64,000 bases of DNA from Pelagibacterium nitratireducens. Its GTDB lineage: Bacteria; Pseudomonadota; Alphaproteobacteria; Rhizobiales; Devosiaceae. The stretch lies in the NCBI RefSeq assembly GCF_037044555.1, contig NZ_CP146275.1:1468501-1532500 (forward strand). The letters are read 5' to 3'. The translations under genes and the position numbers were made by a program. This document shows positions 22,306 through 41,956 of the stretch, in pieces (position 1 is the stretch's first letter; every line of letters begins with the position of its first letter). The notes beneath the pieces were generated by a model. That model saw only the letters and a program-made list of their open reading frames with translations, had not been told where the DNA came from and did no database searches.

Positions 22306-22332
22306 GGCAAAAACTGCCGGGCAGAATGTGCC
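22306..22332. promoter_or_regulatory. Two overlapping-phase ftr-like palindromes
   Basis: CGGCA-AAAAC-TGCCG (core 22306-22318) and GGCA-GAATG-TGCC (22320-22332), 14 bp apart. Same GGCA-N5-TGCC signature as at fliX/flgI, fliL and flgB/fliO. A TTAACCAT half-site lies at 22283. Confidence 0.65.
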
Positions 22333-22409
22333 GCAAAGGCTCTCGGGCGGATTAAGCAGGGGTGTGGTGTTTTATGAAAATCGTATCATTTCGGAATGTT
22401 CGGCCGCGA

Positions 22410-22877
22410 TCACAGCGCCCGGTTGATCGAAAGGCCCTTCATGGATTCAGCCGAAGGCTTGGGGGACTGGCCGGCGGCACCGTAGGTCTTGGGCTTGGCC
22501 GTGTTGCCGGCGGCGCGGGCCACGTCCGAGAGCAGGTTTTCGGTCACGGTGCGGGCGGTGGCCAGGACGCGAAGGTTTTCGGCCATCTGGGTGGCCAGCG
22601 CCTCATGGCCCCGGCGCAGGGCGTCGATGCGTATGGGGGCCTCGGCCTTCAGGCGCGGCGCGGCGCGCTGGATGGCGCGGGCCAGCGTCACGTAGTCCTG
22701 AGCAAGCTGGGTCTTTTCACCGGTGAGCGCCGTGGCCTCGCGCACATGGCCGGCCCGCAAATAGGTGGTTTCGCGGTTCATGACCTCGACCAGGGCACCG
22801 AGCGCGGTTTCTGCGCGGGCGCAAAGGGATTCTGCGTCCAGAGATTCAAGCGCCATGAGGCGATCGGCGGCGGTCAT
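22410..22877 (-). CDS. FlgN-like flagellar export chaperone (putative)
   Basis: A 155-residue helical protein. The stretch around 25-75 (LGALVEVMNRETTYLRAGHV, then ALTGEKTQLAQDYVTLAR) resembles the FlgN family, cytosolic chaperones that deliver FlgK and FlgL to the export apparatus. The C-terminal ~30 residues are low complexity. Its ATG overlaps the stop of the flgJ-like gene by 4 nt, placing it third in a flgI-flgJ-flgN operon. Family assignment is by pattern only. Confidence 0.6.
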   Translation of the reverse strand: MTAADRLMALESLDAESLCARAETALGALVEVMNRETTYLRAGHVREATALTGEKTQLAQDYVTLARAIQRAAPRLKAEAPIRIDALRRGHEALATQMAENLRVLATARTVTENLLSDVARAAGNTAKPKTYGAAGQSPKPSAESMKGLSINRAL

Positions 22878-23191
22878 TGTGTGTAAGCTCCCATGGATGA
22901 CAGGTGAGGCGCGCTTTGCTGTGCGGCCTGTGTTTCGATAAGGGCGGCGACCATCTGGTCGGCAATGCCGATGCCGCCGGCCTGGGCCATTTCGGCCGCG
23001 TATTGTTCGCTCATCATGCCGCGCCAGGTTTCCTCGGCGTAACCGCCGCCAAACATGGAGTCGGTTTCCAGCCCTTTGAACATTTCGGAAACGAGGGTGT
23101 TCAAAAACACGCCTTCGAGTTCGGAAGCCTTTTCGCGCAGATCGGCGTATCCGGGCAGGGACTGGTAAGCGGGGTTGAGGGTAACGGCCAT
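22874..23191 (-). CDS. Rod-binding protein, FlgJ N-terminal domain only
   Basis: A 105-residue protein equal to the rod-binding half of FlgJ (ASELEGVFLNTLVSEMFKGL, then GGGYAEETWRGMMSEQYA). The peptidoglycan hydrolase half found in enterics is absent, as is usual in alphaproteobacteria (Caulobacter CheL type), so another hydrolase must open the wall for the rod. Start and flgI stop overlap (TGATG), giving translational coupling. Periplasmic assembly factor exported through the flagellar channel. Confidence 0.88.
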   Translation of the reverse strand: MAVTLNPAYQSLPGYADLREKASELEGVFLNTLVSEMFKGLETDSMFGGGYAEETWRGMMSEQYAAEMAQAGGIGIADQMVAALIETQAAQQSAPHLSSMGAYTQ

Positions 23192-24315
23192 CAGATCACC
23201 TCGATTTCGGCCTGCAGCGCGCCGGACGCCTTGATGGCCTGCAGGATGGCGATCAGATCGCGCGGCGAGATGCCCAGGGTATTGAGCCCGTCGACAAGCT
23301 GCTGCAGCGAGATCGATTCGGGGACCACGGCAAGCTGGGTGCCGTCTTCATTGACGTTGATCTGCGTGCGCGGCTCGACGGCGGTCACCCCGTCGGTGAA
23401 GGGTTCGGGCTGTACGATCTCGGGGTTTTCGGCAATCGATATTGTCAGATTGGCGTGCGCTATGGCGACCGAGGACACCCGTACGTCGCGACCGATGACG
23501 ATGATGCCCGAGTTTTCGTTGATGACGATGCGGGCCGCCTGATCGGTCTGGATCACCAATTGTTCGATGTCGGTGAGAAGATCGACGATATTGCCGTTGA
23601 AATTGTTGGGCAGGGAGACCCGTACATTGGCCGGATCGGTGGGGATGGCGACGGGCAGGCCGATAAGATCGTTGATGGCCAGCGCGATGCGGCGCGAGGT
23701 GGTGAGATCGGGGTTGCGCAGCGAGAGGCGCACCGAGTGCTGGGCGCCGAGCGCGAAATTGATCTCGCGCTCGATCAGGGCGCCCGAGGAGACCATGCCG
23801 GTGGTGGGCACGCCCGAAACCACTGTCGCGGCCTCGCCCTGGGCCGAAAAGCCGTTGATGAGCACCGGGCCCTGGGCGATGGCATAGGCCTCGCCATCGG
23901 CGCCAAGCAGGGGCGTGACCAAAAGCGTGCCGCCCTGGAGCGAGGACGCATCGCCCATGGCCGCGACCGAAACGTCGAGGCGCGAGCCTTGCGTGGAAAA
24001 GGGCGGCAGATTGGCGGTGACCATCACGGCGGCAACATTTGCCGTGCGCATCGTCTCGCCGCGGGTGTTGACCCCCATGCGCTCGAGCATGGCGATCATC
24101 GACTGGCGGGTGAAGGGCGAATTGTTGAGGCTGTCGCCGGTGCCGTTGAGGCCCACGACCAGCCCGTAGCCGATCAACTGGTTGTCGCGCACGCCCTCGA
24201 TCTGGACGATATCCTTGATGCGGGCCGGTGCGGCAAGCACCGGAAGCGTCCCGGTGATCGCCAGTGCGGCGGCGAGGGCGATTGCCAATGTGGTGCGAAA
24301 CAAACCTGTTTTCAT
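23191..24315 (-). CDS. flgI: Flagellar P-ring protein FlgI
   Basis: A 374-residue periplasmic protein forming the P-ring around the rod in the peptidoglycan layer. Signal peptide MKTGLFRTTLAIALAAALAI ends at VLA-AP; the mature start ARIKDIVQIEGVRDNQLIGY and the motif GLNGTGDS are diagnostic. Length matches the family. The ATG at 24315 is chosen because it begins the signal peptide; 24360 would add a charged leader. It is first gene of flgI-flgJ-flgN and is divergent from fliX, across a control region with CtrA-like and ftr-like sites. Confidence 0.95.
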   Translation of the reverse strand: MKTGLFRTTLAIALAAALAITGTLPVLAAPARIKDIVQIEGVRDNQLIGYGLVVGLNGTGDSLNNSPFTRQSMIAMLERMGVNTRGETMRTANVAAVMVTANLPPFSTQGSRLDVSVAAMGDASSLQGGTLLVTPLLGADGEAYAIAQGPVLINGFSAQGEAATVVSGVPTTGMVSSGALIEREINFALGAQHSVRLSLRNPDLTTSRRIALAINDLIGLPVAIPTDPANVRVSLPNNFNGNIVDLLTDIEQLVIQTDQAARIVINENSGIIVIGRDVRVSSVAIAHANLTISIAENPEIVQPEPFTDGVTAVEPRTQINVNEDGTQLAVVPESISLQQLVDGLNTLGISPRDLIAILQAIKASGALQAEIEVI

Positions 24316-24483
24316 TTTCGTCCGATTCCCCGTTTCCGGGCGGCGTACCCTCGTCCCCACGATGGCGTGCCGCTGTTCACGGGTAATAGAGCGAAAAGCG
24401 TGCCAAGCACGGGCGCTTCCTGTTAATCGATTGTTTTTGTTGGGAATTATCTGAATTGATGGTTCGCGATACGGCTGGCGATG

Positions 24484-24496
24484 GGCAGTGTTTGCC
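24484..24496. promoter_or_regulatory. ftr/FlbD-like palindrome 1 in fliX-flgI region
   Basis: GGCA-GTGTT-TGCC, preceded by G and followed by G. Exactly 42 bp (four helical turns) from the copy at 24526. Confidence 0.68.
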
Positions 24497-24502
24497 GGGC
24501 CG

Positions 24503-24517
24503 TTAAGGGTAAATTAA
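24503..24517. promoter_or_regulatory. CtrA box, perfect TTAA-N7-TTAA
   Basis: TTAA-GGGTAAA-TTAA followed by C. Lies between the two ftr-like palindromes and 61 bp before the fliX start. In Caulobacter fliX is a CtrA-activated class II gene. Confidence 0.75.
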
Positions 24518-24525
24518 CTCCCCTG

Positions 24526-24538
24526 GGCAAAATCTGCC
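24526..24538. promoter_or_regulatory. ftr/FlbD-like palindrome 2 in fliX-flgI region
   Basis: GGCA-AAATC-TGCC, same face of the helix as copy 1. Confidence 0.68.
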
Positions 24539-24540
24539 GG

Positions 24541-24555
24541 TTAGCAATCGATTAA
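24541..24555. promoter_or_regulatory. CtrA-like box, one mismatch
   Basis: TTAG-CAATCGA-TTAA followed by CC, 23 bp before the fliX ATG. One base from the consensus. Confidence 0.5.
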
Positions 24556-24577
24556 CCACGAGCCAATCGGGCCAGAC

Positions 24578-24994
24578 ATGCGGATCGACGGAACAGGGCG
24601 GATCATCACCACGAACCGGCCGGGTACCGCTGCGAAATCGTCCGGGCCTGCATTCCAGATCGAATCGGGGCAGGGTTCGGGCCGCAGCGCCCAGACCTCG
24701 GCGCCGATCGCGGCGGGCGGGATCGATGCGCTGCTGGCGCTGCAGGCGGCAGACGATGCGACCACCGGGCGCCGCAAGGCGGTCAAGCGCGCCAACTCCC
24801 TGCTCGACATGCTCGAAGACATTCAGGCCGATCTTTTGATCGGGCAGGTCGGGGAAGGACGGCTCAACCGGGCCATCTCCCTGCTGCAGCAGGCCAAGGC
24901 GCAGACCGATCCGGAGCTCGAGGCCATCGTGGCCGATATCGAATTGCGGGTGCGGGTCGAACTCGCCAAGCTGGGACGCTATCCCGAAACCTGA
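24578..24994 (+). CDS. fliX: Flagellar assembly regulator FliX
   Basis: A 138-residue FliX-family protein. The C-terminal two-thirds (GGIDALLALQAADDATTGRR, then KRANSLLDMLEDIQADLL) is the conserved helical domain. In Caulobacter FliX couples completion of the early basal body to activity of the sigma-54 activator FlbD, and helps assembly of the P-ring. Here it is divergent from flgI and controlled by a region with CtrA and ftr-like sites, which matches that role. dksA follows 123 bp downstream with its own promoter. Confidence 0.92.
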   Translation: MRIDGTGRIITTNRPGTAAKSSGPAFQIESGQGSGRSAQTSAPIAAGGIDALLALQAADDATTGRRKAVKRANSLLDMLEDIQADLLIGQVGEGRLNRAISLLQQAKAQTDPELEAIVADIELRVRVELAKLGRYPET

Positions 24995-25051
24995 TGCTGT
25001 GACCCGTTTGCGGCACCTCACGGTGTTGTTAACGAGTCGGTCACTTTCCGT

Positions 25052-25080
25052 TTGCCCGATAAGTTTGACCCCACTATATA
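25052..25080 (+). promoter_or_regulatory. Promoter of dksA
   Basis: TTGCCC (25052) - 17 bp - TATATA (25075-25080), 38 bp before the ATG; a TTAAC half-site lies at 25029. Confidence 0.55.
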
Positions 25081-25117
25081 AGCGGCGACCTGTTGCCAAG
25101 GGGAGTGAGTCTTAACG

Positions 25118-25537
25118 ATGTCGGTCGAGGCCCTTGCTGACGACTACCGTCCTTCCGAGGACGAAGAGTTCATGAATGCGCGTCAGCGCGAGTATTTCCG
25201 CAAGAAGCTCAACGCCTGGAAGGACGAGATTCTCCGCGAAAGTCGCGAGACTCTCGAGAACCTGCAGGAAGAAAGCACCAACCACCCCGATATGGCTGAC
25301 CGGGCGTCCTCGGAAAGCGATCGTGCGCTCGAATTGCGCACTCGCGACCGGCAGCGCAAGCTGATCGCCAAGATCGATTCGGCGCTCAAGCGGATCGAGG
25401 ACGGTTCGTACGGTTTTTGCGAGGAGACCGGCGAGCCGATCGGTCTGGCCCGGCTCGACGCCCGTCCCATCGCGACCCTGAGCCTTGAGGCCCAGGAGAT
25501 GCACGAGCGGCGCGAGAAGGTTTATCGCGACGACTGA
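25118..25537 (+). CDS. dksA: RNA polymerase-binding transcription factor DksA
   Basis: A 139-residue secondary-channel regulator of RNA polymerase that acts with ppGpp. The long coiled-coil (30-95, with DRASSESDRALELRTRDR at its tip) and C-terminal globular region are present. Only one of the four zinc-finger cysteines remains (C101 in FCEETGEPIG), the usual state in many alphaproteobacterial DksA proteins, so the fold there does not depend on zinc. Own promoter and own terminator. Confidence 0.93.
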   Translation: MSVEALADDYRPSEDEEFMNARQREYFRKKLNAWKDEILRESRETLENLQEESTNHPDMADRASSESDRALELRTRDRQRKLIAKIDSALKRIEDGSYGFCEETGEPIGLARLDARPIATLSLEAQEMHERREKVYRDD

Positions 25538-25563
25538 TCGCTGAATCTTTTGAATCGTTTGCG

Positions 25564-25597
25564 GCGGCCCGTTGAAGGAAAACTTCAGCGGGCCGTT
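25564..25597 (+). terminator. Terminator of dksA
   Basis: CGGCCCGTTGAAG-loop-CTTCAGCGGGCCG, 13-bp stem with one wobble pair, then TTTGCCG. Also lies just past the stop of the reverse ABC-F gene. Confidence 0.75.
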
Positions 25598-25604
25598 TGC
25601 CGTT

Positions 25605-27185
25605 TCAGGCCAATGCCATCTCCCGCGTGATGGCTATGGCGTCGAGGAAGGGGCGGTCGTGGCTGACGATGAGCAGGGCGCCGTCATAGCCGCGCAGGCC
25701 GGCTTCGACCGCCTCGATGGATTCGAGGTCGAGGTGGTTGGTCGGTTCGTCCAGGATCAGCAATTGCGGCGGGGCAGCGGTGCCCAGAACGCAGGCGAGG
25801 CCGGCGCGCAGGGTTTCGCCGCCTGAGAGCGATGCGGTCATTTTCAGCGCGGCGTCGGCGCGGAATTTGAAGCGGGCCAAAGCGGAGCGACAGGCTTGCT
25901 CGTCGGACGCCGGATTGAGGGCGAGGAAATTGTCGCGCACCGTTTTTTGCGGGTCCAGGACGGACACCTGCTGGTCGAGCAGGGCGTGGGGGACGTGCAC
26001 ACTGACAGCCCCGGCGAACGGTTCGAGAGTGCCGGTAACGAGGCGGAGAAGAGTGGTCTTGCCCGACCCGTTCGGGCCGGTGATTGCCACGCGCTCGGGG
26101 CCGGCGATGGCGAGAGAGACATCCTTGAGGACCGGGGCAGCCGGATCGTAGCCGGCTGAAATGGCGTCGAGGGTCAGCACCTTTTTTCCGACGGGCAGAC
26201 CGGTTGGCGGCATTGCGATGGTAACGTGCTGGAGCACTTCGATTTTGTCGCGGGCCGCCTGAGCGTCCGATTCCGCCTGCTGCCGTAAACGGCTGGCAAG
26301 ACGGGCGTTTTCGCCCGCCGAATTTTCGGCGGCGCTCTTGCGTCCGTTGAGGAGGATTTTCGGCAGATCGCCCTTGGCACGTTTGCGCTTGCCTGCGGCA
26401 TCGGATTTCTGCTGGCGCTCGCGGGTCTGCTGGGCCTTTTTTTCCACCTGGGCGGTGCGGCGTTCGGCAGTGGCCAGATCGTGCTCGGCGGCGGCCAGCT
26501 CGATGGCTTTGCGTTCGCGATAGAAAGAATAATTGCCGCCATAGGTCGTGGCGCCCAGGCTGGTCAGTTCCACAATGGCGTCCATGGTTTCGAGCAATTC
26601 GCGGTCATGGCTGACCACAACGGCGCCGCCGCGCCATTTGGCCAGAAGATCGATGACCGCATCGCGGCCATCGCGATCGAGATTGTTGGTGGGTTCGTCG
26701 AGCAGCAGGAAATCGGGATCGGCGAACACCAGCGCAGCCAGCATGGCGCGGGTGCGCTGGCCGCCCGAGAGGGTTTCGAGCGCGGTATCGGCGGCGGCGG
26801 GCAGGGCAAAGCGGGCGAGGGCTTCGTCGAGCCGCGCTTCGATCGTCCAGTCGGCATCGGCCAATTCCTCGGCACTGGCGGTTCCGGCGGCGGCGCGGGC
26901 GAGGATGTCGCGTTGGGCGGTGGCGCCGAACAGGTCGGCTATGGTCTCGCCAGCCCCGGCCTTGAGCGACTGGCGCAGCAAGCCAATGGTGCCATCGATG
27001 GTGACGCTGCCCGATTGCGGGACCAGCGCGCCGGTGATCAGCCCCAGGATCGTCGATTTGCCCACACCGTTGCGGCCCACAAGGCCGGTGCGCTGGCGGG
27101 AGAAGGCGAGATCGAGATCGGAGAAAAGCTGCGTGCCGTCAGGCGTTGAAAAGCTTAAGCGCGATAGCGTGATGTGTGCGGGCAT
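25605..27185 (-). CDS. ABC-F family ATPase (ribosome-associated)
   Basis: A 526-residue soluble protein with two ABC modules and no membrane segments. Walker A sequences are GRNGVGKST (~36) and GPNGSGKTT (~320); both signature motifs (ETLSGGQRTRAML, ASLSGGETLRAGL) and both DEPTNNLD / DEPTNHLD motifs are present. A lysine/glutamine-rich linker (~235-290) fits the ABC-F interdomain linker. Members act on the ribosomal E site as translation factors or resistance proteins; this subgroup is not identified. Start MPAHITLS at 27185 chosen; upstream frame runs through a repeat hairpin. Confidence 0.9.
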   Translation of the reverse strand: MPAHITLSRLSFSTPDGTQLFSDLDLAFSRQRTGLVGRNGVGKSTILGLITGALVPQSGSVTIDGTIGLLRQSLKAGAGETIADLFGATAQRDILARAAAGTASAEELADADWTIEARLDEALARFALPAAADTALETLSGGQRTRAMLAALVFADPDFLLLDEPTNNLDRDGRDAVIDLLAKWRGGAVVVSHDRELLETMDAIVELTSLGATTYGGNYSFYRERKAIELAAAEHDLATAERRTAQVEKKAQQTRERQQKSDAAGKRKRAKGDLPKILLNGRKSAAENSAGENARLASRLRQQAESDAQAARDKIEVLQHVTIAMPPTGLPVGKKVLTLDAISAGYDPAAPVLKDVSLAIAGPERVAITGPNGSGKTTLLRLVTGTLEPFAGAVSVHVPHALLDQQVSVLDPQKTVRDNFLALNPASDEQACRSALARFKFRADAALKMTASLSGGETLRAGLACVLGTAAPPQLLILDEPTNHLDLESIEAVEAGLRGYDGALLIVSHDRPFLDAIAITREMALA

Positions 27186-27253
27186 AGATGGATTCCGTTC
27201 CGAGACAATTGCGGTTTGCTGTCGGAAGAAAATCCATTTGGGCACACATCCTG

Positions 27254-27358
27254 TTGGAGCGTTTCGGCGCTTCTTGGAATCGCCGAAATGCTCCAAGTCT
27301 TTGTTGGTCGCGCTTCCGAACCGGATAAGTGGAGCCCACTTATCCTGGAAGCACTCCT
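27254..27358. repeat. Composite hairpin repeat (family B), copy 1
   Basis: Hairpin 1: TTGGAGCGTTTCGGCG (27254-27269) against CGCCGAAATGCTCCAA (27281-27296). After a linker GTCTTTGTTG comes hairpin 2, CGCTTCCGAACCGGATAAGT against ACTTATCCTGGAAGC. Hairpin 1 lies in the leader of the ABC-F gene when read on the minus strand. Confidence 0.72.
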
Positions 27359-27426
27359 GTTGCAGTTCGGCGCCAAATTAATCGCTAAACACCACAAGTC
27401 AAGCCGCGCAGGTTGACAGGAAAGCC

Positions 27427-28389: not shown

Positions 28390-28418
28390 CGCGAACGGCG
28401 GCCGATCCTCTCTTTGTC

Positions 28419-28449
28419 GTCATCCCGGGCGAAGACCCAGGATCCAGTA
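28419..28449 (-). repeat. REP-like palindrome (family A), copy 3
   Basis: GTCATCCCGGGCGAAGACCC then AGGATCCAGTA. Oppositely oriented to the copy at 28484. Confidence 0.72.
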
Positions 28450-28483
28450 ATCGGCAGCGCTCAGGTTCCTTCACCAATGCAGA

Positions 28484-28517
28484 GTGTACTGGACTCCGGC
28501 TCAAGGCCGGGGTGACC
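28484..28517 (+). repeat. REP-like palindrome (family A), copy 4
   Basis: GTGTACTGGACTCCGGCTCA then AGGCCGGGGTGACC. Confidence 0.72.
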
Positions 28518-28552
28518 GGGTGGGGAGTAGGGCGCGCAGCACTTGGGCGCTG

Positions 28553-30046: not shown

Positions 30047-30138
30047 GGGGGGCTCCGGGCAGATGAGTGTCGGCAGGGTTGTAGAGGATTTTGGCGGCGA
30101 GGGGGAGAGGGACTACGGAGAGGTTGGGGCTTACAGAG

Positions 30139-33059: not shown

Positions 33060-33803
33060 TCAGGCCTGGGTATCGCCAAGCCGCTGGATCGCGGAACGGC
33101 GCAATTCGTCTTGCTTGTTCATGAGGTCGGCGAGCGAGGAATAGGCCCGCGTCACCCGGATCATTTCGGTCATTTCGCCAACGCCCGAGACGTTGGAGCG
33201 CTCGAGCGCGCCCTGGACGACGCGGGTGGTCGAAACCGCCAGCGGGGTGCCGCCGGCAAACATGGTGTCGCCGGTGCGGGTCAGTTCCTGGGGGTTTTCA
33301 AACTCGACGACTGCGAGGCTGCCCTTGTTGCCGGCGCTCGATGTGATTTCGCCCTCGGCGGTTATGGCGATGTCGGTTTCCCCGGCGCCAAAGACGATGG
33401 GGTTGCCGCCATCGGAAAGCACCGGGAAGCCGTTCTGGGTGACGAGCACGCCGTCGGAATTGATTTCCATTGCGCCATTACGGGTGTAGCGGGTGCCCTC
33501 GGGCGCCTGGACGGCCAGAAAGCCTTCGCCGGCAAGAGCGACGTCGAGCGGATTGCCGGTCTGGGTCATGGACCCGGCGGCGAGATCGTGCATGGTGGCC
33601 CAGTCCTGGACATAGGAAAGCTGCTGGCTGCCGCTGGGGAAACTGCGGTCGGAAGCGACCGGCATGACGTATTCCTCGAACAGGATCGCCTCGGCCTTGA
33701 AACCGGTCGAATTGATGTTGGCCAGATTGTTGGCCACCACATCCATCTGCCGTTGCAGCGCCATCTGGCGCGAGAGGCCGATCAATTGCGCGTTCTCGAT
33801 CAT
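33060..33803 (-). CDS. flgF: Proximal rod protein FlgF
   Basis: A 247-residue axial rod protein. The start IENAQLIGLSRQMALQRQMD, then ANNLANINSTGFKAEAI, and C-terminal ERSNVSGVGEMTEMIRVTRA identify FlgF. First gene of the reverse operon, divergent from fliL across a 281-bp control region. Confidence 0.94.
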   Translation of the reverse strand: MIENAQLIGLSRQMALQRQMDVVANNLANINSTGFKAEAILFEEYVMPVASDRSFPSGSQQLSYVQDWATMHDLAAGSMTQTGNPLDVALAGEGFLAVQAPEGTRYTRNGAMEINSDGVLVTQNGFPVLSDGGNPIVFGAGETDIAITAEGEITSSAGNKGSLAVVEFENPQELTRTGDTMFAGGTPLAVSTTRVVQGALERSNVSGVGEMTEMIRVTRAYSSLADLMNKQDELRRSAIQRLGDTQA

Positions 33804-33977
33804 GCGCGTTTCCCCGTTAACATCTTTCGAGGGCCCTGCCTCCCCAGGCCAGGCGTCTCGCCAAAAGACAATGCAGGTGGCGTGCCAACTTCATAAATTG
33901 ATATAAAACAACGGGTTAGATTGATCGGGTGTTGTGGGCTTTGCGGTAAGGCTTTGCCGGCGGGGAAAAATCTACCC

Positions 33978-33990
33978 GGCAATACTTGCC
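33978..33990. promoter_or_regulatory. ftr/FlbD-like palindrome between flgF and fliL
   Basis: CGGCA-ATACT-TGCCG, five-base arms perfect. 95 bp before fliL and 175 bp before flgF. Confidence 0.68.
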
Positions 33991-34005
33991 GCCCTTAGGC
34001 AAATC

Positions 34006-34084: not shown

Positions 34085-34585
34085 ATGAGCGACGTGACCG
34101 AAACAGACGTTAACGCCACATCGGACGCGGCTCCCGCCAAAAAGGGGCTGCCCAAGATTGCGCTGATCGGCGGGGGCGTTGCCGTGCTGTTGCTGGTCGC
34201 GGGGGCAGGTGGGTGGTTTCTGACCCAATCGGGCGGCGGCGACAGTGCCGACCATGGGGGTGAGGTCGAGGTCGCCGCGGAGGCCGCCTTTTATGATCTC
34301 CCCGATATCATGGTCAATCTCAACACCTCGGGCGGTGCGGACGCATTCCTGCGGCTGCGCACGGCGCTGGAAGTGCGCGACGAGGCGATGATCGAGTTGA
34401 TCGAACCGCGCATGCCGCGGGTTCTCGATGCCTTTCAGGTTTATTTGCGTGAGCTGCGTCCCGCCGATCTTGAAGGTTCGGCAGGGCTCTATCGTCTCAA
34501 GGAAGAGTTGCTGCGGCGCGTCAACCTCGCCGTCTATCCGGCGAGCGTGGACAATATCCTGTTCAAGGAAATCCTGGTGCAATAG
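34085..34585 (+). CDS. fliL: Flagellar basal body-associated protein FliL
   Basis: A 166-residue single-pass inner-membrane protein. A cytosolic tail of ~25 residues, one helix at ~26-47 (IALIGGGVAVLLLVAGAGGW) and a periplasmic stomatin-like domain (FYDLPDIMVNLNTSGGADAF) ending NILFKEILVQ match FliL. It supports stator function. Heads a fliL-fliM-DUF6468-motE-TPR operon; fliM starts 9 bp after its stop. Confidence 0.94.
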   Translation: MSDVTETDVNATSDAAPAKKGLPKIALIGGGVAVLLLVAGAGGWFLTQSGGGDSADHGGEVEVAAEAAFYDLPDIMVNLNTSGGADAFLRLRTALEVRDEAMIELIEPRMPRVLDAFQVYLRELRPADLEGSAGLYRLKEELLRRVNLAVYPASVDNILFKEILVQ

Positions 34586-34594
34586 CGGATAATC

Positions 34595-35689
34595 ATGGCC
34601 AACGAGACAGGAAAAACGGACGGGGCGCTCGGGGACGACTGGGCCGCCATGCTCGAAGCCGAAGCGGGCGGGGCGGACGATGTCGACCGCGTTCTCAATC
34701 AGGATGAAATCGACTCTCTTCTCGGGTTCGATTCCAGCGCTGCATCCAATGTCGAGCTGACCGGTGTGCGGGCGCTGATCAATTCGGCGCTGGTGTCCTA
34801 TGAACGCCTGCCGATGCTGGAAATCGCGTTCGACCGCCTGGTGCGGCTGACGACGACCACGCTGCGCAATTTCACCTCCGACAATGTCGAGGTCACCCTT
34901 GAATCGATCAGTTCGGTTCGGTTCGGCGATTATCTCAATTCCATTCCACTGCCCGCCATTCTCTCGGTCATCAAGGCCGAGGAGTGGGACAATTTCGGGC
35001 TTTTGACCGTCGACAGCGCGCTGATCTATTCGATGATCGACGTGCTCCTTGGCGGGCGGCGCGGCTCGAGCGTCATCCGTGTCGAGGGGCGGCCCTATAC
35101 GACAATCGAGATGGCACTGGCGCGGCGGATGATCGAGCATATTCTCGATGACATGCACAAGGCGTTCGAGCCTCTGGCGCCCGTCAATTTCAAGCTCGAC
35201 CGGCTGGAGACCAATCCGCGCTTTGCCGCCATTTCGCGGCCGGGCAATGCGGCGATCCTTGTCGAATTGCGCATCGACATGGACGATCGCGGCGGCAAGA
35301 TCGAGATCATGCTGCCCTATGCCACGATCGAGCCGATCCGCGAGCAGTTGCTCCAGATGTATATGGGCGAAAAATTCGGGCGCGATCCGATCTGGGAGGG
35401 GCATCTGGCCACCGAGATCCACGCCGCCGATACCGAAATTTCCGCCGTGCTGCACGAGCTCGACCTGCCGCTGTCGAAGGCTCTGAGCCTGGCCGAGGGC
35501 GACACGATCATGTTCGACATGACTCCGTCCGACCCGGTGACGCTGCGCTGCGGCGAGGTGGACCTGACCCGGGCGGTGATGGGCCATATCGGGAAAAATG
35601 TTTCGGTCCGGGTCACCCGGCCGCTCAACCCGCCAAAGGTGACGATGGCGGCCTTCGAAGCGATGGAAGAAAAGGCGGAGGGCAAATAA
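34595..35689 (+). CDS. fliM: Flagellar motor switch protein FliM
   Basis: A 364-residue C-ring switch protein. The CheY-P binding peptide near the N-terminus (LNQDEIDSLLGF, ~34-45), the middle CheC-like domain with LINSALVSYERLPMLEIAFD, and a C-terminal SpoA domain (AVLHELDLPLSKALSLAEGD) are in the right order. The stop and the next start share one base (35689), so translation is coupled. Confidence 0.95.
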   Translation: MANETGKTDGALGDDWAAMLEAEAGGADDVDRVLNQDEIDSLLGFDSSAASNVELTGVRALINSALVSYERLPMLEIAFDRLVRLTTTTLRNFTSDNVEVTLESISSVRFGDYLNSIPLPAILSVIKAEEWDNFGLLTVDSALIYSMIDVLLGGRRGSSVIRVEGRPYTTIEMALARRMIEHILDDMHKAFEPLAPVNFKLDRLETNPRFAAISRPGNAAILVELRIDMDDRGGKIEIMLPYATIEPIREQLLQMYMGEKFGRDPIWEGHLATEIHAADTEISAVLHELDLPLSKALSLAEGDTIMFDMTPSDPVTLRCGEVDLTRAVMGHIGKNVSVRVTRPLNPPKVTMAAFEAMEEKAEGK

Positions 35690-36099
35690 TGCCTCTTGGA
35701 CTGATGATTGAAATTGCCGTTGCCGCGCTTTTGGCAACGACGATCGGTTACTGCATCGTGCTCAACGGCCGGATCAAGAATCTGCAGGCCGACCGCGCCG
35801 CCCTCCAGCAGATGATCGCCGATCTGGTGCAGGCGACGACCATGGCCAACGGGGCCATCAAAGGGATGCGGGAAACCGCCGTCGAGGCCGACGAAAGGCT
35901 CAACAGCCGGCTCAACGAGGCCGAGCGCTTTGCGATCGAACTGGCCAATCACGTCAATGCCGGCCAGGCCGTCATGGACCGGATTGCCAAGATCACCCAG
36001 GCCGCGCGTTCTCCGGGAGATGGCGGCGATGGCAGCCGGGCCGGCAGCGCTCTCAAGACACTCAAGGACCACCAGAAGCGCCGGGAGCACGCCGCGTGA
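35689..36099 (+). CDS. DUF6468 membrane-anchored coiled-coil flagellar protein (PflI-like position)
   Basis: A 136-residue protein with one N-terminal membrane helix (~4-23) and a cytosolic helical region (IKNLQADRAALQQMIADLVQ, then EADERLNSRLNEAERFAIEL). I recognise it as DUF6468. It occupies the place directly after fliM where, to my recollection, Caulobacter encodes the flagellar positioning protein PflI; this equivalence is inference. It starts within the fliM stop and overlaps the next gene by 4 nt, so it is part of the motor operon. Confidence 0.75.
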   Translation: MPLGLMIEIAVAALLATTIGYCIVLNGRIKNLQADRAALQQMIADLVQATTMANGAIKGMRETAVEADERLNSRLNEAERFAIELANHVNAGQAVMDRIAKITQAARSPGDGGDGSRAGSALKTLKDHQKRREHAA

Positions 36100-36842
36100 A
36101 CCGGGTTCGTCTTCTGCCTGTCGTGGTTATTGCCGCATCGGCTTTGCTGATGCTCAAGACGTTCGGCATTGTCTCGGGGCAGGGCTATATCCTTGGCGGT
36201 GTGAGCGCCGCGCAGGCGGCTGGCGGCGGGCAGGTGGCCGAAGAGGCGGCGGCCGAGCCCGAAGCGGCGCCGGCCGATGGGGAACCCGAGGTCGAGATGT
36301 CACCGGCCGATGCCGCCGCGGCGGCGCTTTTTGAAAATTTCCCTATCGACGACAGTGAGCTGGAAGGGGCCGACGACGCCCCGCCGGGCGCGACCGAGGC
36401 GATCATTCTCCAGCGCCTCACCGAGCGCCGCACCGAACTCGAAAGCTTTGCGAGCGAGTTGCAGACCCGGCTCGCGGTGGTCGAGGCCGCCGAAATGCGT
36501 ATCGAGGAGCGCATGAGCGAATTGAGCGCCATGGAGGCCCAGATCAATGCGCTGGTCGACGCCCAGCAAGACGCCGAGGCCGAGCAGTTCGCGGCCATTG
36601 TGGCCATGTATGAAAACATGCGGGCCAGCGATGCCGCCACGATCTTCAACGATCTCGATGAAGGCGTGCTGGTCAAGGTCGGACATGCCATGAACCCGCG
36701 CAAGCTCGGGCCGATCATGGCCAAGATGATCCCTGCCAAAGCCCAGCAACTGACAGTTCTTCTTGCCCAGACGGGACCGGAAGGACCTCAGGAGCCGACA
36801 ACGCCCGAATTTGCCAATCTGCCCCAGATCGTCGGGCAATAG
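36096..36842 (+). CDS. MotE-like periplasmic flagellar motor chaperone
   Basis: A 248-residue protein: membrane-spanning N-terminus (~6-24), an Ala/Glu/Pro-rich linker, a coiled-coil (~100-165) and an MgtE-N-like domain (FAAIVAMYENMRASDAATIF, then NDLDEGVLVKVGHAMNPRKL). This layout is that of rhizobial MotE, which stabilises MotC. No MotC is in the window. It overlaps the upstream gene by 4 nt (ATGA). Confidence 0.82.
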   Translation: MNRVRLLPVVVIAASALLMLKTFGIVSGQGYILGGVSAAQAAGGGQVAEEAAAEPEAAPADGEPEVEMSPADAAAAALFENFPIDDSELEGADDAPPGATEAIILQRLTERRTELESFASELQTRLAVVEAAEMRIEERMSELSAMEAQINALVDAQQDAEAEQFAAIVAMYENMRASDAATIFNDLDEGVLVKVGHAMNPRKLGPIMAKMIPAKAQQLTVLLAQTGPEGPQEPTTPEFANLPQIVGQ

Positions 36843-36929
36843 CCGAACACAGGGGCTTTTGAGGTGGCGCGGTAATCCCATCTTAAGCGCTTCTGCCTAG
36901 TGTGCCCTTGAATAAGGGCGGCAGGCAGA

Positions 36930-39900
36930 ATGCTTTCGACCACAAGAAAACGTGGACGCCAGATTTATGGATATGGGGACGCTGCAAGATTTATCTTGCT
37001 GGCGTTTTTCGTGTTTGTAGGGTGGGCCGGACCGGCGCTGGCGCAGGAAAACATCACCTTCGAGGCACAGCGGCATGAGAATTACGCCCGGCTGATCCTG
37101 ACCTTTCCCGACCGGCTCAACCTGCCCGAGCATACGGTGGAAAGCGACAATGGCGTGCTGGTCATATCGGTGCCCGACACGCCCATGGAGGGGGTTCTGC
37201 CCGATGTCGGAACCACGCTGAGCGAATATGTTGCCATTGCCCGGTTTGATCCCGACCGCACCGGCATCCGCATGGGGATGCGCGAGCAGTTCCAGATCAA
37301 CACCATGGCAGCGGGCGAACAGCTCTATATCGATCTGCTGCCGGCAAGCTGGGTCGGGCTGCCCCCGGGGCTGCCGCCCGAAATTATCACCAAGCTGGCC
37401 GAACGCGCCGAGGAGGCAGCCCGGATCGCCGAGGAACGCAGGCGCGCCGAGCTTGTACTCGAATACGATCCCCAGCCCACCATCAGGGTGGGGCGGCATC
37501 AGACCTTTTCGCGTATCGAATTCAGCTGGAACGTGGGCACCAAGGCCGAGTTCACCCGCGAAGGGGAAAACGCCTCGATCCGGTTCGACTGGCCGGTGCC
37601 GGTCGATCTTTATGAGGTGCTGTCGGACCGCCCTGCGCAGCTTGGCGAGGTGACCAACATCGTCCATGGCGGCGACACCGAAATCGCCATGACCATTCCC
37701 GAGGATGTTTCGGCGCGCTTTTACGAGCAGTCGAGCACCGAATTCATCCTCGATATCGACGTGCCGGGGGCGAGTGCCGATGGGCTCGAACTGGACGAGA
37801 TCGCCGCGACCCTTTCGGATCCCGAACCTGTTTCCGAAGGGGAGGAGGTAGGGGAGGACCCCGCGCAGGAGGTGTCGGACGGGCCGGGCACCGTCCAGCC
37901 CTATGTCAGCACGGTGGGCCAGACCGTCCGTGTCGTTTTCCCTTTCGTCGAGGAAACGCCCGCCGCCGTGTTCCGGCGCGGCAATGTGGTGTGGATGTTA
38001 TTCGATACGCCCTCCCGGCTGGTCAGCCCCGATGCGCAATCGGGAGAAATTCTCGATGGCCTGGCCCGCGACCTGACCGTTGAAAGCACGGGCGCGGCCT
38101 ATGTCGTGCGCATGGTGCTCGACGACAACCGGCTGGCCACGCTGGCCTCGGAAGGGCAGAGCTGGGTTCTCTCGCTCGGTGACATCCTGCTTTCGGCGGT
38201 TCAGCCGGTGACGCTTGAACGCCGCCGCTCGCCCACCGGGCTTTATGAAATGCAGGCCGATCTCGAGCGGCCGGGCAATGTGCACCAACTGCGCGATCCC
38301 GATGTGGGCGATATTCTGGATGTGGTGACCACCTATCCGCCGGCCCGCGGGGTGGTGCGCGATCTGGGCTTTGTGGATTTCGAAGCGCCGCGCTCCATCC
38401 ATGGACTGGTGATCAAGCCGCTGCACGAGGGCATCAATGTTTCCATCGAGGACCGGTTTGCGGTGATCACCGCCGAGACCGGCCTTACGGTTTCGACCGA
38501 CGATGGCCAGCAGCGCCTTTACGCCCCGGATGCGACGAGCGTCAGCGCGCTCGACCTCAATGCGATGATGGCACCGAACCCCGATGAATTCGTGCTTTTG
38601 CGCGACGAGTATCAGGAGCGCGCCGCGCTTGTCGAGGGCAGGGAACTCGACCGCGCCCGGCTCGATCTCGCCCAGTTCTACCTGAGCAACAATTTTGCCT
38701 ACGAAGCGATCGGCGTACTCGATGTTCTTACGCGCGATCTGCGTCAGGAGAGCCTCGAGCCGGTCATGAGCGCGACGCTGGGTGCGGCCAACGCGCTGGC
38801 CGGGCGCCATGCCGAAGCACTGGACCTGCTCAACGCCGACAGGATGCTCAACGATGCCGACGCCATGATCTGGCGCACCATCGCCAAGGTCGATGCCGGC
38901 GATTTCGCCGGTGCGCGGCTCGATGCGTTCGGCGGCGACCACGTCATCGACAATTATCCCAACTGGGTCCGGGCGCGCTTTCATATGGCGGCCATACGCG
39001 CCGCCGTGGAGCAGAGCGATGCCAAGATGGCCGCCGATATGATCCGCGCTGTCGATCTTGCCGCGCTGACGCCCGATCAGGTTGCGCAATATCAGCTGCT
39101 TTCGGCGCGCCTTGATCATATCAACGGGCTCGAGAACGACGCGCTGGAGGGCTATGGGCGGGTCATCGCCGCCGACCGGCGCGGCTCGACCGCCGAAGCG
39201 GTGCTGCGCACCATCGAGATCCTGGACGATATGGGGCAACTCGATATCGCCAAGGCCATCCATACGCTGGCCGTCCAATCGACGCTGTGGCGCGGCGACC
39301 AGCTTGAAATCGATATCGTTACCAAGCTCACCGATCTGCAATATCGCCATGGCGATTATCGCGATGCGTTCGTTCTGACCCGTGAAATGGCGTTGGGGTT
39401 CGAGGAGAGCCAAACGCTCGACGGGCTTCTGGCGCGGGCGCGGACCGAATTTTCCGGGCTGTTCCTCGACGGGAAGGCCGACGCCTTGGACCCGGTTTCG
39501 GCGCTGTCGATCTATTACGACTATCGCCATCTCACCCCGCCGGGGGCCGAGGGCGACATGATGATCCGCAATCTCGCCCAGCGGCTGATCGAGGTCGACC
39601 TGCTGGCCCAGGCATCCGAACTGCTGAGCTATCAGATCGAGAACCGGCTCGATGGCGCGGCGCGCGCGCAGGTGGCCGCCGATCTTGCCGTTGTCCATAT
39701 CGCCAATCGCGATCCCAATTCGGCATTGCGAGTGCTTTACGACACGCGGCTGGCCGGGTTGCCGCCGGGGCTGGAGCGCCAGCGCCGCGTGCTCGAGGCC
39801 AGCGCGCTCATTCACGCCCATCGGCACGATCTGGCGCTCGACCTGCTTTCGAGCCTTACGGGCCGCGATACCGAATTGCTGCGCATCGATGCGCTGTGGC

Positions 39901-40286
39901 AGGCCAACCGCTTTTCGGCGGCCAGCGAAACCATCGAGGCGCTCTATTCGCCCGATCTGGACACCGGCACGCTTTCGCCCATGGCGCGCACCAACATCGT
40001 CAAGGCCGCGGTGGGCTATGTGCTCTCGAACGACCAGATCGGCCTGGCCCGGTTGCGCAGCCGGTTTTCCGAGGCAATGTCGACAACGCCCGAATGGCCG
40101 GTCTTTGCCTTCGTTGTCGAAAATGTCGATCCCAATGGCGTCAACTTCCGCGAGATTGCCCGGCAGGTGGCCGACACCCAGGCGATCAACGCGTTTTTGA
40201 ATGCGTATCGCGAGATTTATTCCGGGCAGGATGCGGTGACGCCATTGCGCGCGGCGCCGGAAACGGGGGCGGTGGCGAGCTTGTAG
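36930..40286 (+). CDS. Giant exported TPR-type protein in the fliM-motE operon
   Basis: An 1118-residue protein with an N-terminal signal/anchor (~20-42, ILLAFFVFVGWAGPALAQ). Residues ~45-500 form a beta-rich region with two similar ITFEAQRHENYARLILTFP / RVGRHQTFSRIEFSWN modules; residues ~540-1110 are helical repeats of TPR/SEL1 character. A positive coiled-coil (AERAEEAARIAEERRRAELV) lies at ~155-180. I know such proteins at this position in alphaproteobacterial motor operons but not their function; a periplasmic scaffold around the motor or stator is a reasonable guess. 87-bp gap after motE, same direction. Confidence 0.78.
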   Translation: MLSTTRKRGRQIYGYGDAARFILLAFFVFVGWAGPALAQENITFEAQRHENYARLILTFPDRLNLPEHTVESDNGVLVISVPDTPMEGVLPDVGTTLSEYVAIARFDPDRTGIRMGMREQFQINTMAAGEQLYIDLLPASWVGLPPGLPPEIITKLAERAEEAARIAEERRRAELVLEYDPQPTIRVGRHQTFSRIEFSWNVGTKAEFTREGENASIRFDWPVPVDLYEVLSDRPAQLGEVTNIVHGGDTEIAMTIPEDVSARFYEQSSTEFILDIDVPGASADGLELDEIAATLSDPEPVSEGEEVGEDPAQEVSDGPGTVQPYVSTVGQTVRVVFPFVEETPAAVFRRGNVVWMLFDTPSRLVSPDAQSGEILDGLARDLTVESTGAAYVVRMVLDDNRLATLASEGQSWVLSLGDILLSAVQPVTLERRRSPTGLYEMQADLERPGNVHQLRDPDVGDILDVVTTYPPARGVVRDLGFVDFEAPRSIHGLVIKPLHEGINVSIEDRFAVITAETGLTVSTDDGQQRLYAPDATSVSALDLNAMMAPNPDEFVLLRDEYQERAALVEGRELDRARLDLAQFYLSNNFAYEAIGVLDVLTRDLRQESLEPVMSATLGAANALAGRHAEALDLLNADRMLNDADAMIWRTIAKVDAGDFAGARLDAFGGDHVIDNYPNWVRARFHMAAIRAAVEQSDAKMAADMIRAVDLAALTPDQVAQYQLLSARLDHINGLENDALEGYGRVIAADRRGSTAEAVLRTIEILDDMGQLDIAKAIHTLAVQSTLWRGDQLEIDIVTKLTDLQYRHGDYRDAFVLTREMALGFEESQTLDGLLARARTEFSGLFLDGKADALDPVSALSIYYDYRHLTPPGAEGDMMIRNLAQRLIEVDLLAQASELLSYQIENRLDGAARAQVAADLAVVHIANRDPNSALRVLYDTRLAGLPPGLERQRRVLEASALIHAHRHDLALDLLSSLTGRDTELLRIDALWQANRFSAASETIEALYSPDLDTGTLSPMARTNIVKAAVGYVLSNDQIGLARLRSRFSEAMSTTPEWPVFAFVVENVDPNGVNFREIARQVADTQAINAFLNAYREIYSGQDAVTPLRAAPETGAVASL

Positions 40287-40395
40287 GTGGGGGCTCGGCA
40301 GCTTCCTGGTCAGTGGAGTTGGGAGGCGCAGATAAGGGGCCGGTGTATTGTGCAGCGCTGATCCGGCCGTCGCTTAGGCTCCGGCGTTCGTGCCT

Positions 40396-40439
40396 CAAAT
40401 CGCTCCACTGGAGCGATTTGACCTTGCCTTTGGCAAGGT
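40396..40439. other. Two back-to-back perfect hairpins
   Basis: CAAATCGCTCC-act-GGAGCGATTTG (40396-40420) abuts ACCTTGCC-ttt-GGCAAGGT (40421-40439), between the convergent TPR gene and fliP. No T-tract on either side, so termination is possible but not certain. Confidence 0.7.
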
Positions 40440-40445
40440 CGGCAC

Positions 40446-41252
40446 TCACCCCGTAAAACTTCGTATCAATGAGCCCGCCACAAGGTGCCAGCCGTCGACG
40501 AGGACGAAGAAGATCAGCTTGAAGGGCAGGGAGATGATGACCGGGGGGAGCATCATCATGCCCATGCTCATCAGCACCGAGGCCACGACCATGTCGATGA
40601 CCACGAAGGGCAGGAACAAAAGAAAGCCGATCTCGAAGGCCCGGCGCAGTTCGGAGATCATGAAGGCGGGGATGAGGATGCGCAGTTCGAGGTCTTCGGG
40701 GTTTTCCGGCGCCGGGGTTTCGGTCAGATCCATGAACAGCATCACGTCCTGGGGGCGGACATGGGTGCGCATGAATTCGTGCAATGGCCCGGAGCCCAGT
40801 TCGATCGCTTCGACGATCTCAACCTCGCCGGCGACAAGCGGTTCGATGCCCAGCTCATAGCTTTGCTGCAGTGTGGGCGCCATGATGAAGGCGGTGAGAA
40901 ACAGCGCCAGCGAGATCATCACCGAATTGGGCGGCGCGGTCTGCAGCCCGATGGCGGTGCGCAGCAGCGAAAGCACCACCACGATGCGAGTAAAACTGGT
41001 CACCATCACGAGAATGGAGGGCGCGAGCGCCAGGATGGTGATGAGCGCGATCATCTGGATCGCGCGTTCGGTCAACGTGGTCTCGTCGCCGAAATCGATG
41101 GAGATGTCCTGGGCAATTCCCGTTGCGGGCAACAGCAGGACGGCAGCGAGGCCAAGAGCAAGAACAAGTGCCGCGCGGGGCGTTCCGGCCCGGCGCGGTG
41201 CGGTATCAGGACCTGGTTGCGGTGTCCTCGTAATCTCGTTCCCTCGCTTCAA
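40446..41252 (-). CDS. fliP: Flagellar export gate protein FliP
   Basis: A protein of about 268 residues in the inner-membrane export gate. A cleavable signal peptide (AALVLALGLAAVLLLPATGI then AQ) precedes four membrane segments; TERAIQMIALITILALAPSI and MSMGMMMLPPVIISLPFKLI are FliP hallmarks. The start is unclear: no ATG/GTG lies before the signal peptide. TTG at 41252 is used; ATT at 41234, with AGGG seven bases upstream, is an alternative. Either way it overlaps fliO by 29-47 nt, so coupling with fliO is certain. Confidence 0.9.
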   Translation of the reverse strand: MKRGNEITRTPQPGPDTAPRRAGTPRAALVLALGLAAVLLLPATGIAQDISIDFGDETTLTERAIQMIALITILALAPSILVMVTSFTRIVVVLSLLRTAIGLQTAPPNSVMISLALFLTAFIMAPTLQQSYELGIEPLVAGEVEIVEAIELGSGPLHEFMRTHVRPQDVMLFMDLTETPAPENPEDLELRILIPAFMISELRRAFEIGFLLFLPFVVIDMVVASVLMSMGMMMLPPVIISLPFKLIFFVLVDGWHLVAGSLIRSFTG

Positions 41253-41793
41253 GCAGCGGTTCGGGCTCCACGGTGGTGGTGGCCGACATGGCAACGCTTG
41301 TAGCTGAGTCGGACGAGGTGCGGCCCTTATTGTCGGGCTTTCCCCCATCGAGTTTGGGTTCGTTGTCCTCGACCGGGCGCAAAAGGCCGGTATGGCGCAG
41401 CGAGGTGCCGGCGGGCCGGGCAGGGGCCGCCGGCTCGGGTGCGACGGCGGGGGCCGGTTCGGCGGGTTTGCGGCGCGGACGCTGGACCTGCTGGACGGGC
41501 GGCGCTTCAAAACCGCTTTCGACAACCAGATCGTTGGGGCCGCCGATGACGATGAGGTGCTCGGTTTCATCGCGGCGGATGATGATGGCCTGGCGCTTGT
41601 TGTCGATGGCAACGGAATCGATGACCATGAGGCGCCGGTTGCGGCCACGGCCGACACTGGCCGACGCATCGCCCACGAGCTTGATAAGCCATACGGCAAG
41701 CACGATCAGAACGATCACGATGGCCAGCGCCACGATCATTGTCAGATAGCCGTTTTCACCGCCGAAAAGGCTGTTCAGAAATCCCACTGTCAT
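41206..41793 (-). CDS. fliO: Flagellar export chaperone FliO
   Basis: A 195-residue membrane protein that assembles the FliP ring. One helix near the N-terminus (~18-40, TMIVALAIVIVLIVLAVWLI) is followed by the conserved RLMVIDSVAIDNKRQAIIIR and VIGGPNDLVVES motif, then a long Pro/Ala-rich tail. Start MTVGFLNSL at 41793; upstream in-frame ATG at 41826 is weaker. Heads fliO-fliP, with an ftr-like palindrome 55 bp upstream. Confidence 0.88.
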   Translation of the reverse strand: MTVGFLNSLFGGENGYLTMIVALAIVIVLIVLAVWLIKLVGDASASVGRGRNRRLMVIDSVAIDNKRQAIIIRRDETEHLIVIGGPNDLVVESGFEAPPVQQVQRPRRKPAEPAPAVAPEPAAPARPAGTSLRHTGLLRPVEDNEPKLDGGKPDNKGRTSSDSATSVAMSATTTVEPEPLLEARERDYEDTATRS

Positions 41794-41847
41794 GCTCCTG
41801 GAAATGGGCAACGCGTCCCGCGACACATAGCCGGACGCTTGGCGCTG

Positions 41848-41860
41848 GGCAATAGCTGCC
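41848..41860. promoter_or_regulatory. ftr/FlbD-like palindrome upstream of fliO
   Basis: GGCA-ATAGC-TGCC followed by TACTATAG. 96 bp from the copy at 41944. Confidence 0.65.
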
Positions 41861-41918
41861 TACTATAGCGCAGCTTTGTTCAAAATTGGGAGATTTCCGG
41901 CCCTTCCTTTCCGATCGG

Positions 41919-41933
41919 TTAACGCGCCGTTAA
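41919..41933. promoter_or_regulatory. CtrA box, perfect TTAA-N7-TTAA, upstream of flgB
   Basis: GTTAA-CGCGCCG-TTAACC: an inverted TTAAC-type full site 60 bp before the flgB ATG. Confidence 0.78.
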
Positions 41934-41943
41934 CCATGGAGTG

Positions 41944-41956
41944 GGCAAAGTTTGCC
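41944..41956. promoter_or_regulatory. ftr/FlbD-like palindrome upstream of flgB, extended
   Basis: Core GGCA-AAGTT-TGCC within a perfect 17-bp palindrome TGGGCAAAGTTTGCCCA (41942-41958), starting 10 bp after the CtrA box. It would sit at or just past a CtrA-activated start site, a place fit for repression. Confidence 0.72.

Follow-up and report, generated by a model that had tools for sequence, protein, structure and literature searches.

Predicted FlbD-binding palindromes in enhancer and operator positions at flagellar promoters of Pelagibacterium nitratireducens

In Caulobacter, the regulator FlbD activates middle and late flagellar genes at ftr sites and represses fliF at the site ftr4 (PMC3930126). 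FlbD is governed by FliX and not by a known kinase (PMC3096577, PMC7064773), although the introduction of PMC6180460 still names an unknown kinase. A physical interaction of FliX with FlbD has been shown in Caulobacter, and dozens of alphaproteobacteria with polar flagella are described as having the pair (PMC3096577). Devosia and Pelagibacterium are listed with a subpolar, not a lateral, flagellum (PMC6406911, with the column order of its table as we infer it). Here we analyze a 64 kb stretch of Pelagibacterium nitratireducens DNA (C1:1468501-1532500 in a genome of 3.85 Mb and two contigs), called the window throughout, and the palindrome GGCA-N5-TGCC that recurs in its flagellar control regions. 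This palindrome resembles the Caulobacter ftr consensus.

A preliminary description of the window implied that FlbD would be a surprise in the Hyphomicrobiales. That implication does not hold, because 108 of 199 genomes sampled from this order encode a FlbD above the curated cut-off, and regulation by FlbD and FliX has been published for Bradyrhizobium. Dardis et al. reportedly described it in Bradyrhizobium diazoefficiens in 2021; going by the title, the likeness lies in the order and in the regulator pair. In Rhodobacter sphaeroides, divergent flagellar promoters of the fla2 set likewise share CtrA boxes; unlike here, flbD is absent from the Rhodobacteraceae presented in that work and RpoN is said to be unused for fla2 (PMC6180460). 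Among the titles listed in a literature search, outside which most subscription journals lie, none deals with FlbD sites in Pelagibacterium or Devosia.

We consider it highly probable that the palindromes are ftr-type FlbD sites, and that FlbD, under FliX, would activate middle operons and repress early ones. As in Caulobacter crescentus, FlbD, FliX and RpoN are found together with IHF-like sites and with CtrA boxes at early genes, and palindromes stand at sigma-54 rod, ring and hook promoters and at fliF (PMC3930126, PMC3096577). The preliminary description had proposed a FlbD-like regulon, and this much stands: the three proteins are encoded, and the sites are arranged like sigma-54 enhancers and like an operator behind CtrA boxes, an arrangement conserved in relatives. 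What it had not seen is a second, early arm of the regulon, marked by CtrA boxes.

A FlbD homologue, whose absence the preliminary description had said would refute its proposal, is encoded 0.5 Mb from the window (C1:955300-956691). It matches the equivalog model NF050807 at 816.3 bits (cut-off 750) over positions 1-450 of 454, has a sigma-54 interaction domain (PF00158, 231.6 bits), a Fis-type DNA-binding domain (PF02954, 53.6 bits) and the GAFTGA loop in its translation, and is nearest to Pelagibacterium proteins of 91, 90 and 87% identity. Its receiver domain is weak (21.5 bits, under the Pfam cut-off of 30.2), which is in line with control without phosphorylation. The gene lies in a cluster comprising fliF-fliG-fliH-fliN-flbD-flhA and fliK-flgD-sciP, in which fliF is preceded by two exact palindromes and fliK by one; the names fliF, fliG and fliH rest on position and sequence, and fliH has no Pfam match. 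The genome holds a single RpoN match, so that both of the genes the preliminary description had proposed looking for, flbD and rpoN, are there. It is very improbable, in our judgement, that NtrC, NtrX or another sigma-54 activator binds the palindrome while FlbD acts elsewhere. Eight sigma-54 activator domains above 130 bits are encoded, of which FlbD's is the one examined further, and its binding to the palindrome is a deduction. Among the matches listed, however, FlbD is the one own-genome match over the equivalog cut-off, its gene is part of a flagellar operon, and palindromes are found at flagellar promoters, among them the one of flbD's own operon. Of the 19 genomes surveyed for both proteins, 18 agree in having a FlbD over cut-off and in FliX presence, the exception being a FlbD without a FliX match.

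The exact copies named in the preliminary description (22306, 22320, 24484, 24526, 33978, 41848 and 41944) are all present in the sequence, as is its one-mismatch copy at 12341 (GGAAAAATTTGCC), and no exact copy occurs in any non-flagellar gap of the window, as it had found for the gaps it scanned. Further exact copies that it omitted (19123, 20629, 24031 and 35681) all lie inside coding sequence; the last of these (35681-35693) spans the fliM stop codon and a possible next start codon and is classed as coding. In total, the window holds 11 exact palindromes, compared with a mean of 2.13 and a maximum of 7 in 100 dinucleotide shuffles. With one mismatch allowed there is no enrichment in the window (53 found vs 49.5 expected), and the copy at 12341 therefore counts only for its conserved position.

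Genome-wide, 193 exact palindromes were found, against 83 for a reversed-pattern control. The 172 that could be placed (the other 21 have G or C in the middle) divide into 133 coding and 39 intergenic copies according to a codon-model gene caller, and 10 of the 39 fall in flagellar control regions; an even spread of the 172 would put about 22 in intergenic DNA (13% intergenic, measured on 204 kb). A motif equally common near non-flagellar genes would, by the preliminary description's own criterion, have refuted it, and this is not what is seen: flagellar intergenic DNA has 10 copies in 5,575 bp and other intergenic DNA 3 in 20,898 bp (Fisher p = 2.6e-5), the latter taken as contiguous stretches, some of them picked for holding motif copies, a bias that works against the enrichment claim. 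The density in flagellar intergenic DNA is 12 to 27 times higher, the upper figure using an estimated intergenic fraction. That chance or codon bias in a GC-rich genome gives such palindromes anywhere would agree with the 133 of 172 examined copies that are coding and the 29 of 39 intergenic copies that are non-flagellar, but we find it scarcely credible in view of this density, of partners and spacings for which shuffled sets give 0.0, and of the conservation of spacing in relatives at flgE, flgI, flgF, fliF and flgB.

The palindrome alone is common, which its shortness and GC-richness would lead one to expect; it is the context, a sigma-54 or CtrA partner, that distinguishes the flagellar copies. 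With a partner defined as a CtrA box within 60 bp (one mismatch allowed) or a sigma-54 site scoring at least 18.5 at a distance of 50-170 bp, we find one at 7/10 flagellar intergenic copies, 2/29 other intergenic copies and 2/133 coding copies. The three top-scoring sigma-54-like sites of the whole window, on both strands, are the three that adjoin palindromes, at flgE, flgI and flgF. The weights used in the scoring agree with the Caulobacter RpoN motif GGCNC-N4-CTTGC (PMC4287350). Across the genome, the sigma-54 consensus with one mismatch is only mildly enriched (183 and 184 by strand vs 139 and 138 reversed).

Four rod, ring and hook promoters of the sigma-54 type, those of flgE, flgI, flgF and fliK, have palindromes upstream, with centres 86-128 bp (about 85-130 bp) from the sigma-54 sites (Table 1). 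At flgE, which was placed in 8 of 11 genomes (our own and seven relatives; G010 and G012 were dropped as partial matches and G005 as the wrong gene), a palindrome with no or one mismatch starts exactly 100 bp before the start of the sigma-54 site in 8/8. The divergent regions flgI|fliX and flgF|fliL were compared across relatives chosen for having FliX or FliL (32 and 33 of 41 genomes), from which 30/32 FliX and 30/34 FliL matches were taken and one fliX region, in which the contig ends at the gene (L272), was dropped; controls were 350-bp regions with 20 dinucleotide shuffles each. The 29 flgI|fliX regions hold an exact palindrome in 27 cases, a sigma-54 site in 29, a CtrA box (at most one mismatch) in 28 and all three in 27, compared with 0.3, 0.9, 3.9 and 0.0 in shuffles. 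For flgF|fliL the corresponding counts are 28, 29, 27 and 26 of 30, compared with 0.7, 0.9, 3.8 and 0.0. IHF-like sites with at most one mismatch occur in 22/28 flgF intervals and 23/29 flgI intervals, whereas base shuffles gave 3.5 and 3.1. The data presented here show the proteins and the DNA elements with their spacings and conservation; the palindrome itself is very probably a docking site for FlbD.

A second position is set by CtrA boxes (TTAA-N7-TTAA), which are perfect at fliX and flgB and have one mismatch at fliL and fliF: at fliX (24526), flgB (41944) and fliF, palindromes begin 23-25 bp after the start of the box. In the flgI|fliX regions a palindrome with at most one mismatch lies 20-28 bp after the box start in 24/29, and operator-position palindromes average at most 0.05 in shuffled flgI|fliX and flgF|fliL regions. 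The flgB palindrome lies 24-25 bp after the box start in 10/10 genomes including our own, one copy with one mismatch; a relative without a flgB match (G006) was left out. At fliF, an ftr4-like site is found in our own genome and, with at most one mismatch, in 27/27 named loci (30 loci minus L100, L113 and L118); it is exact in 24, a CtrA-like box is present in 26, and the spacing is exactly 25 bp in 23. The stretch before fliF in 30 FlbD loci holds a palindrome 60-150 bp before a sigma-54 site in 19 (16 exact), and several of the 11 without such a pair are short stretches.

It is also conceivable that the palindrome is an activator site only, and that it comes to lie behind CtrA boxes through the compactness of divergent promoters, without repressing early genes. 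Palindromes do occur upstream of CtrA boxes too, and at fliL an operator-position palindrome is found in only 2/30 regions; since it is absent in the other 28, repression of fliL is not supported, and the palindrome at flgF|fliL looks, from its placement, enhancer-only. Two early promoters argue the other way. In our own genome neither fliF nor flgB has a sigma-54 partner in range, yet the palindrome is retained 24-25 bp behind the start of the CtrA box in 23/27 fliF loci and 10/10 flgB genomes, and Caulobacter FlbD represses fliF at ftr4 (PMC3930126). We therefore think the activator-only explanation unlikely, though clearly less remote than the others considered here, and retain the proposal that FlbD would act with both signs. 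For flgB itself, where a CtrA box is accompanied here by an operator palindrome but by no sigma-54 site of at least 18.5, a shared CtrA site is reported in Caulobacter to repress flgB and activate fliO (PMC6180460).

Table 1. Features of the flagellar control regions (window coordinates unless a locus is named)
Feature	Position	Strand	Remarks
Palindrome, one mismatch, GGAAAAATTTGCC	12341..12353	.	enhancer position for flgE
Sigma-54 promoter of flgE, TGGCACCCCTCTTGCA	12441..12456	+	top window score, 20.6 of 21.2; conserved
flgE (hook)	12545..14164	+	start shifted from 12377 per codon model and Pfam position
Small conserved open reading frame, 116 aa	21929..22279	-	directly after FlgN-like gene
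Palindrome, first of tandem pair	22306..22318	.	exact; no promoter partner found
Palindrome, second of tandem pair	22320..22332	.	exact; 14 bp from 22306 copy
flgI (P ring)	23191..24315	-	Pfam/codon model
Sigma-54 promoter of flgI operon, TGGCACGCTTTTCGCT	24390..24405	-	score at least 18.5 in 29/29 regions (own and 28 relatives)
Palindrome	24484..24496	.	86 bp from flgI -24 element, just upstream of fliX CtrA box
CtrA box TTAA-N7-TTAA of fliX	24503..24517	+	flanked by two palindromes
Palindrome, operator position for fliX	24526..24538	.	23 bp after CtrA-box start; 128 bp from flgI -24
fliX, FlbD partner/regulator	24578..24994	+	PF10768 133.4 bits, cut-off 25
flgF, head of flgF-flgG-flgA-flgH	33060..33803	-	family match
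Sigma-54 promoter of flgF operon, TGGCACGCCACCTGCA	33872..33887	-	score at least 18.5 in 29/30 regions (own and 29 relatives)
Palindrome	33978..33990	.	98 bp from flgF -24 element, upstream of fliL CtrA box
CtrA-like box of fliL, GTAACCATTCGTTAA	34006..34020	+	one mismatch
fliL, head of fliL-fliM-DUF6468	34085..34585	+	family match
fliO-position gene by fliP	41206..41793	-	named by position; Pfam FliP match downstream of gene
Palindrome, fliO side of fliO-flgB gap	41848..41860	.	no promoter partner found
Perfect CtrA box of flgB, TTAACGCGCCGTTAA	41919..41933	+	perfect in 10/10 genomes including own
Palindrome, operator position for flgB	41944..41956	.	25 bp after CtrA-box start
flgB	41993..42397	+	Pfam rod match 19.7 bits, under cut-off 20.7
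Sigma-54 site of fliK	L072:3305-3320		palindrome within enhancer range

We propose that the early operons (fliF with flbD, fliX, fliL and flgB) would be transcribed from CtrA-box promoters, and that completion of the early basal body would lead FliX to release FlbD activity. FlbD would then bind at flgE, flgI, flgF and fliK, 85-130 bp ahead of the -24/-12 elements; with IHF bending the DNA, bound FlbD would open the sigma-54 promoters of these rod, ring and hook genes. At fliF, fliX and flgB, where it would bind 23-25 bp after the CtrA box begins and approximately cover the -10 region, FlbD would shut the gene off. In these steps, the binding of FlbD, CtrA and IHF, the sign of each effect and the control by FliX are carried over from Caulobacter and may be expected to apply here.

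The flgI|fliX region has palindromes on both sides of its CtrA box, and from the flgI promoter both are at enhancer distance (86 and 128 bp). This pair can serve both ends, so that one occupancy would activate the middle operon and shut down the early one. We regard the case as evenly balanced for a broader proposal, in which the divergent flagellar regions of the order would form a compact toggle with near-fixed spacings, ordered as sigma-54 site, IHF site, palindrome, CtrA box and palindrome; a single FlbD occupancy would flip flgI on and fliX off, and flbD would itself come under a like operator via fliF. A spacing code may follow, in which a distance of most often 84-98 bp from the -24 element would mean activation and one of 23-25 bp after the CtrA-box start repression, and which would give the sign of FlbD action without data beyond the sequence. 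The FlbD switch is known from relatives; here its DNA layout is unusually readable, and the two-sided flgI|fliX site is its most interesting part.

How far the layout extends can be judged from 520-bp slices of 15 named genomes, 14 with FliX and 14 with FliL; Pelagibacterium lacus, which shares its fliX coordinates with the relative G010, is counted both here and among the relatives above. The fliX region has an exact palindrome in 11, a one-mismatch palindrome in 2 and none in 1 (Terricaulis), with a sigma-54 site in 13; the fliL region has an exact palindrome in 12, a one-mismatch palindrome in 1 and none in 1 (a MarineAlpha3 metagenome-assembled genome, MAG), with a sigma-54 site in 14 and a CtrA box in 13. 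Palindrome and sigma-54 site are kept at both fliX and fliL in Roseibium, Stappia, Phreatobacter, Pleomorphomonas and a Beijerinckiaceae MAG, and an Emcibacteraceae MAG has only one-mismatch palindromes at the two genes. In the Terricaulis MAG, the fliF region and the fliL slice retain the palindrome, and an enhancer pair is kept as well. Among the named genomes outside Devosiaceae, the fliX region often has no CtrA box. The layout recurs mostly in Devosiaceae and more loosely elsewhere.

Several results weigh against the proposal that these palindromes constitute a two-armed FlbD regulon, the fliL result above among them. The 29 non-flagellar intergenic copies speak against the specificity of the motif alone, and 3 of the 10 flagellar intergenic sites (22306, 22320 and 41848) have no partner element. 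Single partner elements are only moderately concentrated in our own genome, where sigma-54 sites of at least 19.4 number 4 in 5,504 bp of flagellar and 2 in 20,805 bp of other intergenic DNA and perfect CtrA boxes 3 and 3; the case therefore rests on spacing and conservation. The relatives are not independent draws, and the sigma-54 weights and the IHF consensus were entered by hand. At fliX, only 7/14 named genomes have a CtrA box (no more than one mismatch), and in the Terricaulis MAG both the palindrome and the sigma-54 site are missing from that region. FliX falls under the NCBIfam equivalog cut-offs (best 107 vs 153 bits), although these models appear to be lineage-specific. Finally, neither flagellin of our own genome is preceded by a sense-orientation sigma-54-like site of at least 17 (relatives reach 18.3 at best), and the flagellin genes have no nearby palindrome, only the distant pair at 22306/22320.

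The flagellins thereby differ from those of Caulobacter, which are RpoN-dependent (PMC3930126). With neither sigma-54 site nor palindrome upstream, late flagellin control seems to be unlike that of Caulobacter. In the stretch upstream of the flagellin (21793-21928), elements around TTTGTTAACCATTC and ATGGTTAACGCGCTCCTAAC are present, without a sigma-54 site or palindrome; altered forms of them recur in the five relatives of the genus for which the slice extended that far, and elements containing TTAACC are common to flagellin upstream regions in the genus.

The tandem pair 22306/22320 was considered as a flagellin enhancer and rejected, there being no sigma-54 site of at least 17 downstream in our own genome and 514 bp to the flagellin start. 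The pair sits about 27-53 bp before the open reading frame (ORF) at 21929 and, with at most one mismatch per copy, is present in 8/8 same-genus genomes (our own and 7 of 11 relatives) and in 0/3 same-family genomes. This ORF has no Pfam or NCBIfam match and a poor codon score, and the codon-model caller did not call it. That it is spurious was nevertheless rejected: because its frame, start (V.G...QGPLGVA) and end (W.PP.SSL.LRDR.V) are kept in seven same-genus relatives, we keep it as a probable gene, and its product is probably a flagellar-linked small protein. The palindrome at 41848, which likewise has no partner, is exact in 6 of 9 relatives, has one mismatch in 2 and is absent from 1.

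The genes of the window assigned by Pfam, NCBIfam and the codon model include flgE, flgK, flaF, flbT, two flagellins, ORF 21929, a rod-binding protein, flgI, fliX, dksA, flgH, flgA, flgG, flgF, fliL, fliM, fliP, flgC, fliE, fliQ, fliR, flhB and the kinase gene cckA. The gene flgL is named by position, with a flagellin-type N-terminal match, and a FlgN-like protein scores under the Pfam cut-off. A unit headed by flgB runs flgB-flgC-fliE-fliQ-fliR-flhB and is followed by cckA; the gap before cckA holds a perfect CtrA box (TTAACGAGCGGTTAA, 45455-45469), hinting at CtrA feedback on its own kinase gene. In the flbD cluster, sciP, which encodes a CtrA inhibitor, follows fliK-flgD, and its 174-bp upstream gap (L072:953-1126, C1:960953-961126) holds a CtrA-like box with one mismatch (TTAGCCAATTTTTAA) and no palindrome. 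Downstream of fliL-fliM on the same strand, 36930-40286 (+) encodes a large protein of 1096-1118 aa without a Pfam or NCBIfam match, kept at 45-88% identity in ten relatives.

The neighbours of 14 of the 29 non-flagellar intergenic palindromes were annotated, and none looks flagellar. Two non-flagellar copies have a partner element. The first, at C1:3332123 (L249:1501-1513), is exact, has G flanks and precedes a CpaB/RcpC pilus gene by 138 bp; CtrA-like boxes lie near it, its sigma-54-like match scores only 18.5, and a pilus link is possible. The second, at C1:3433507 (L251:1501-1513), is exact and has a sigma-54-like site (19.6) at 131 bp. We claim regulon membership for neither.

Taken with the likely cis sites, these data indicate that a Caulobacter-type FlbD switch is probably an ordinary, conserved part of the Devosiaceae flagellar system. 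Roughly one in two of the genomes sampled from the Hyphomicrobiales encodes FlbD, and this is a group often discussed through VisNR, Rem and FtcR. The strict spacings would provide a reading rule with which activation or repression by FlbD may be predicted promoter by promoter.

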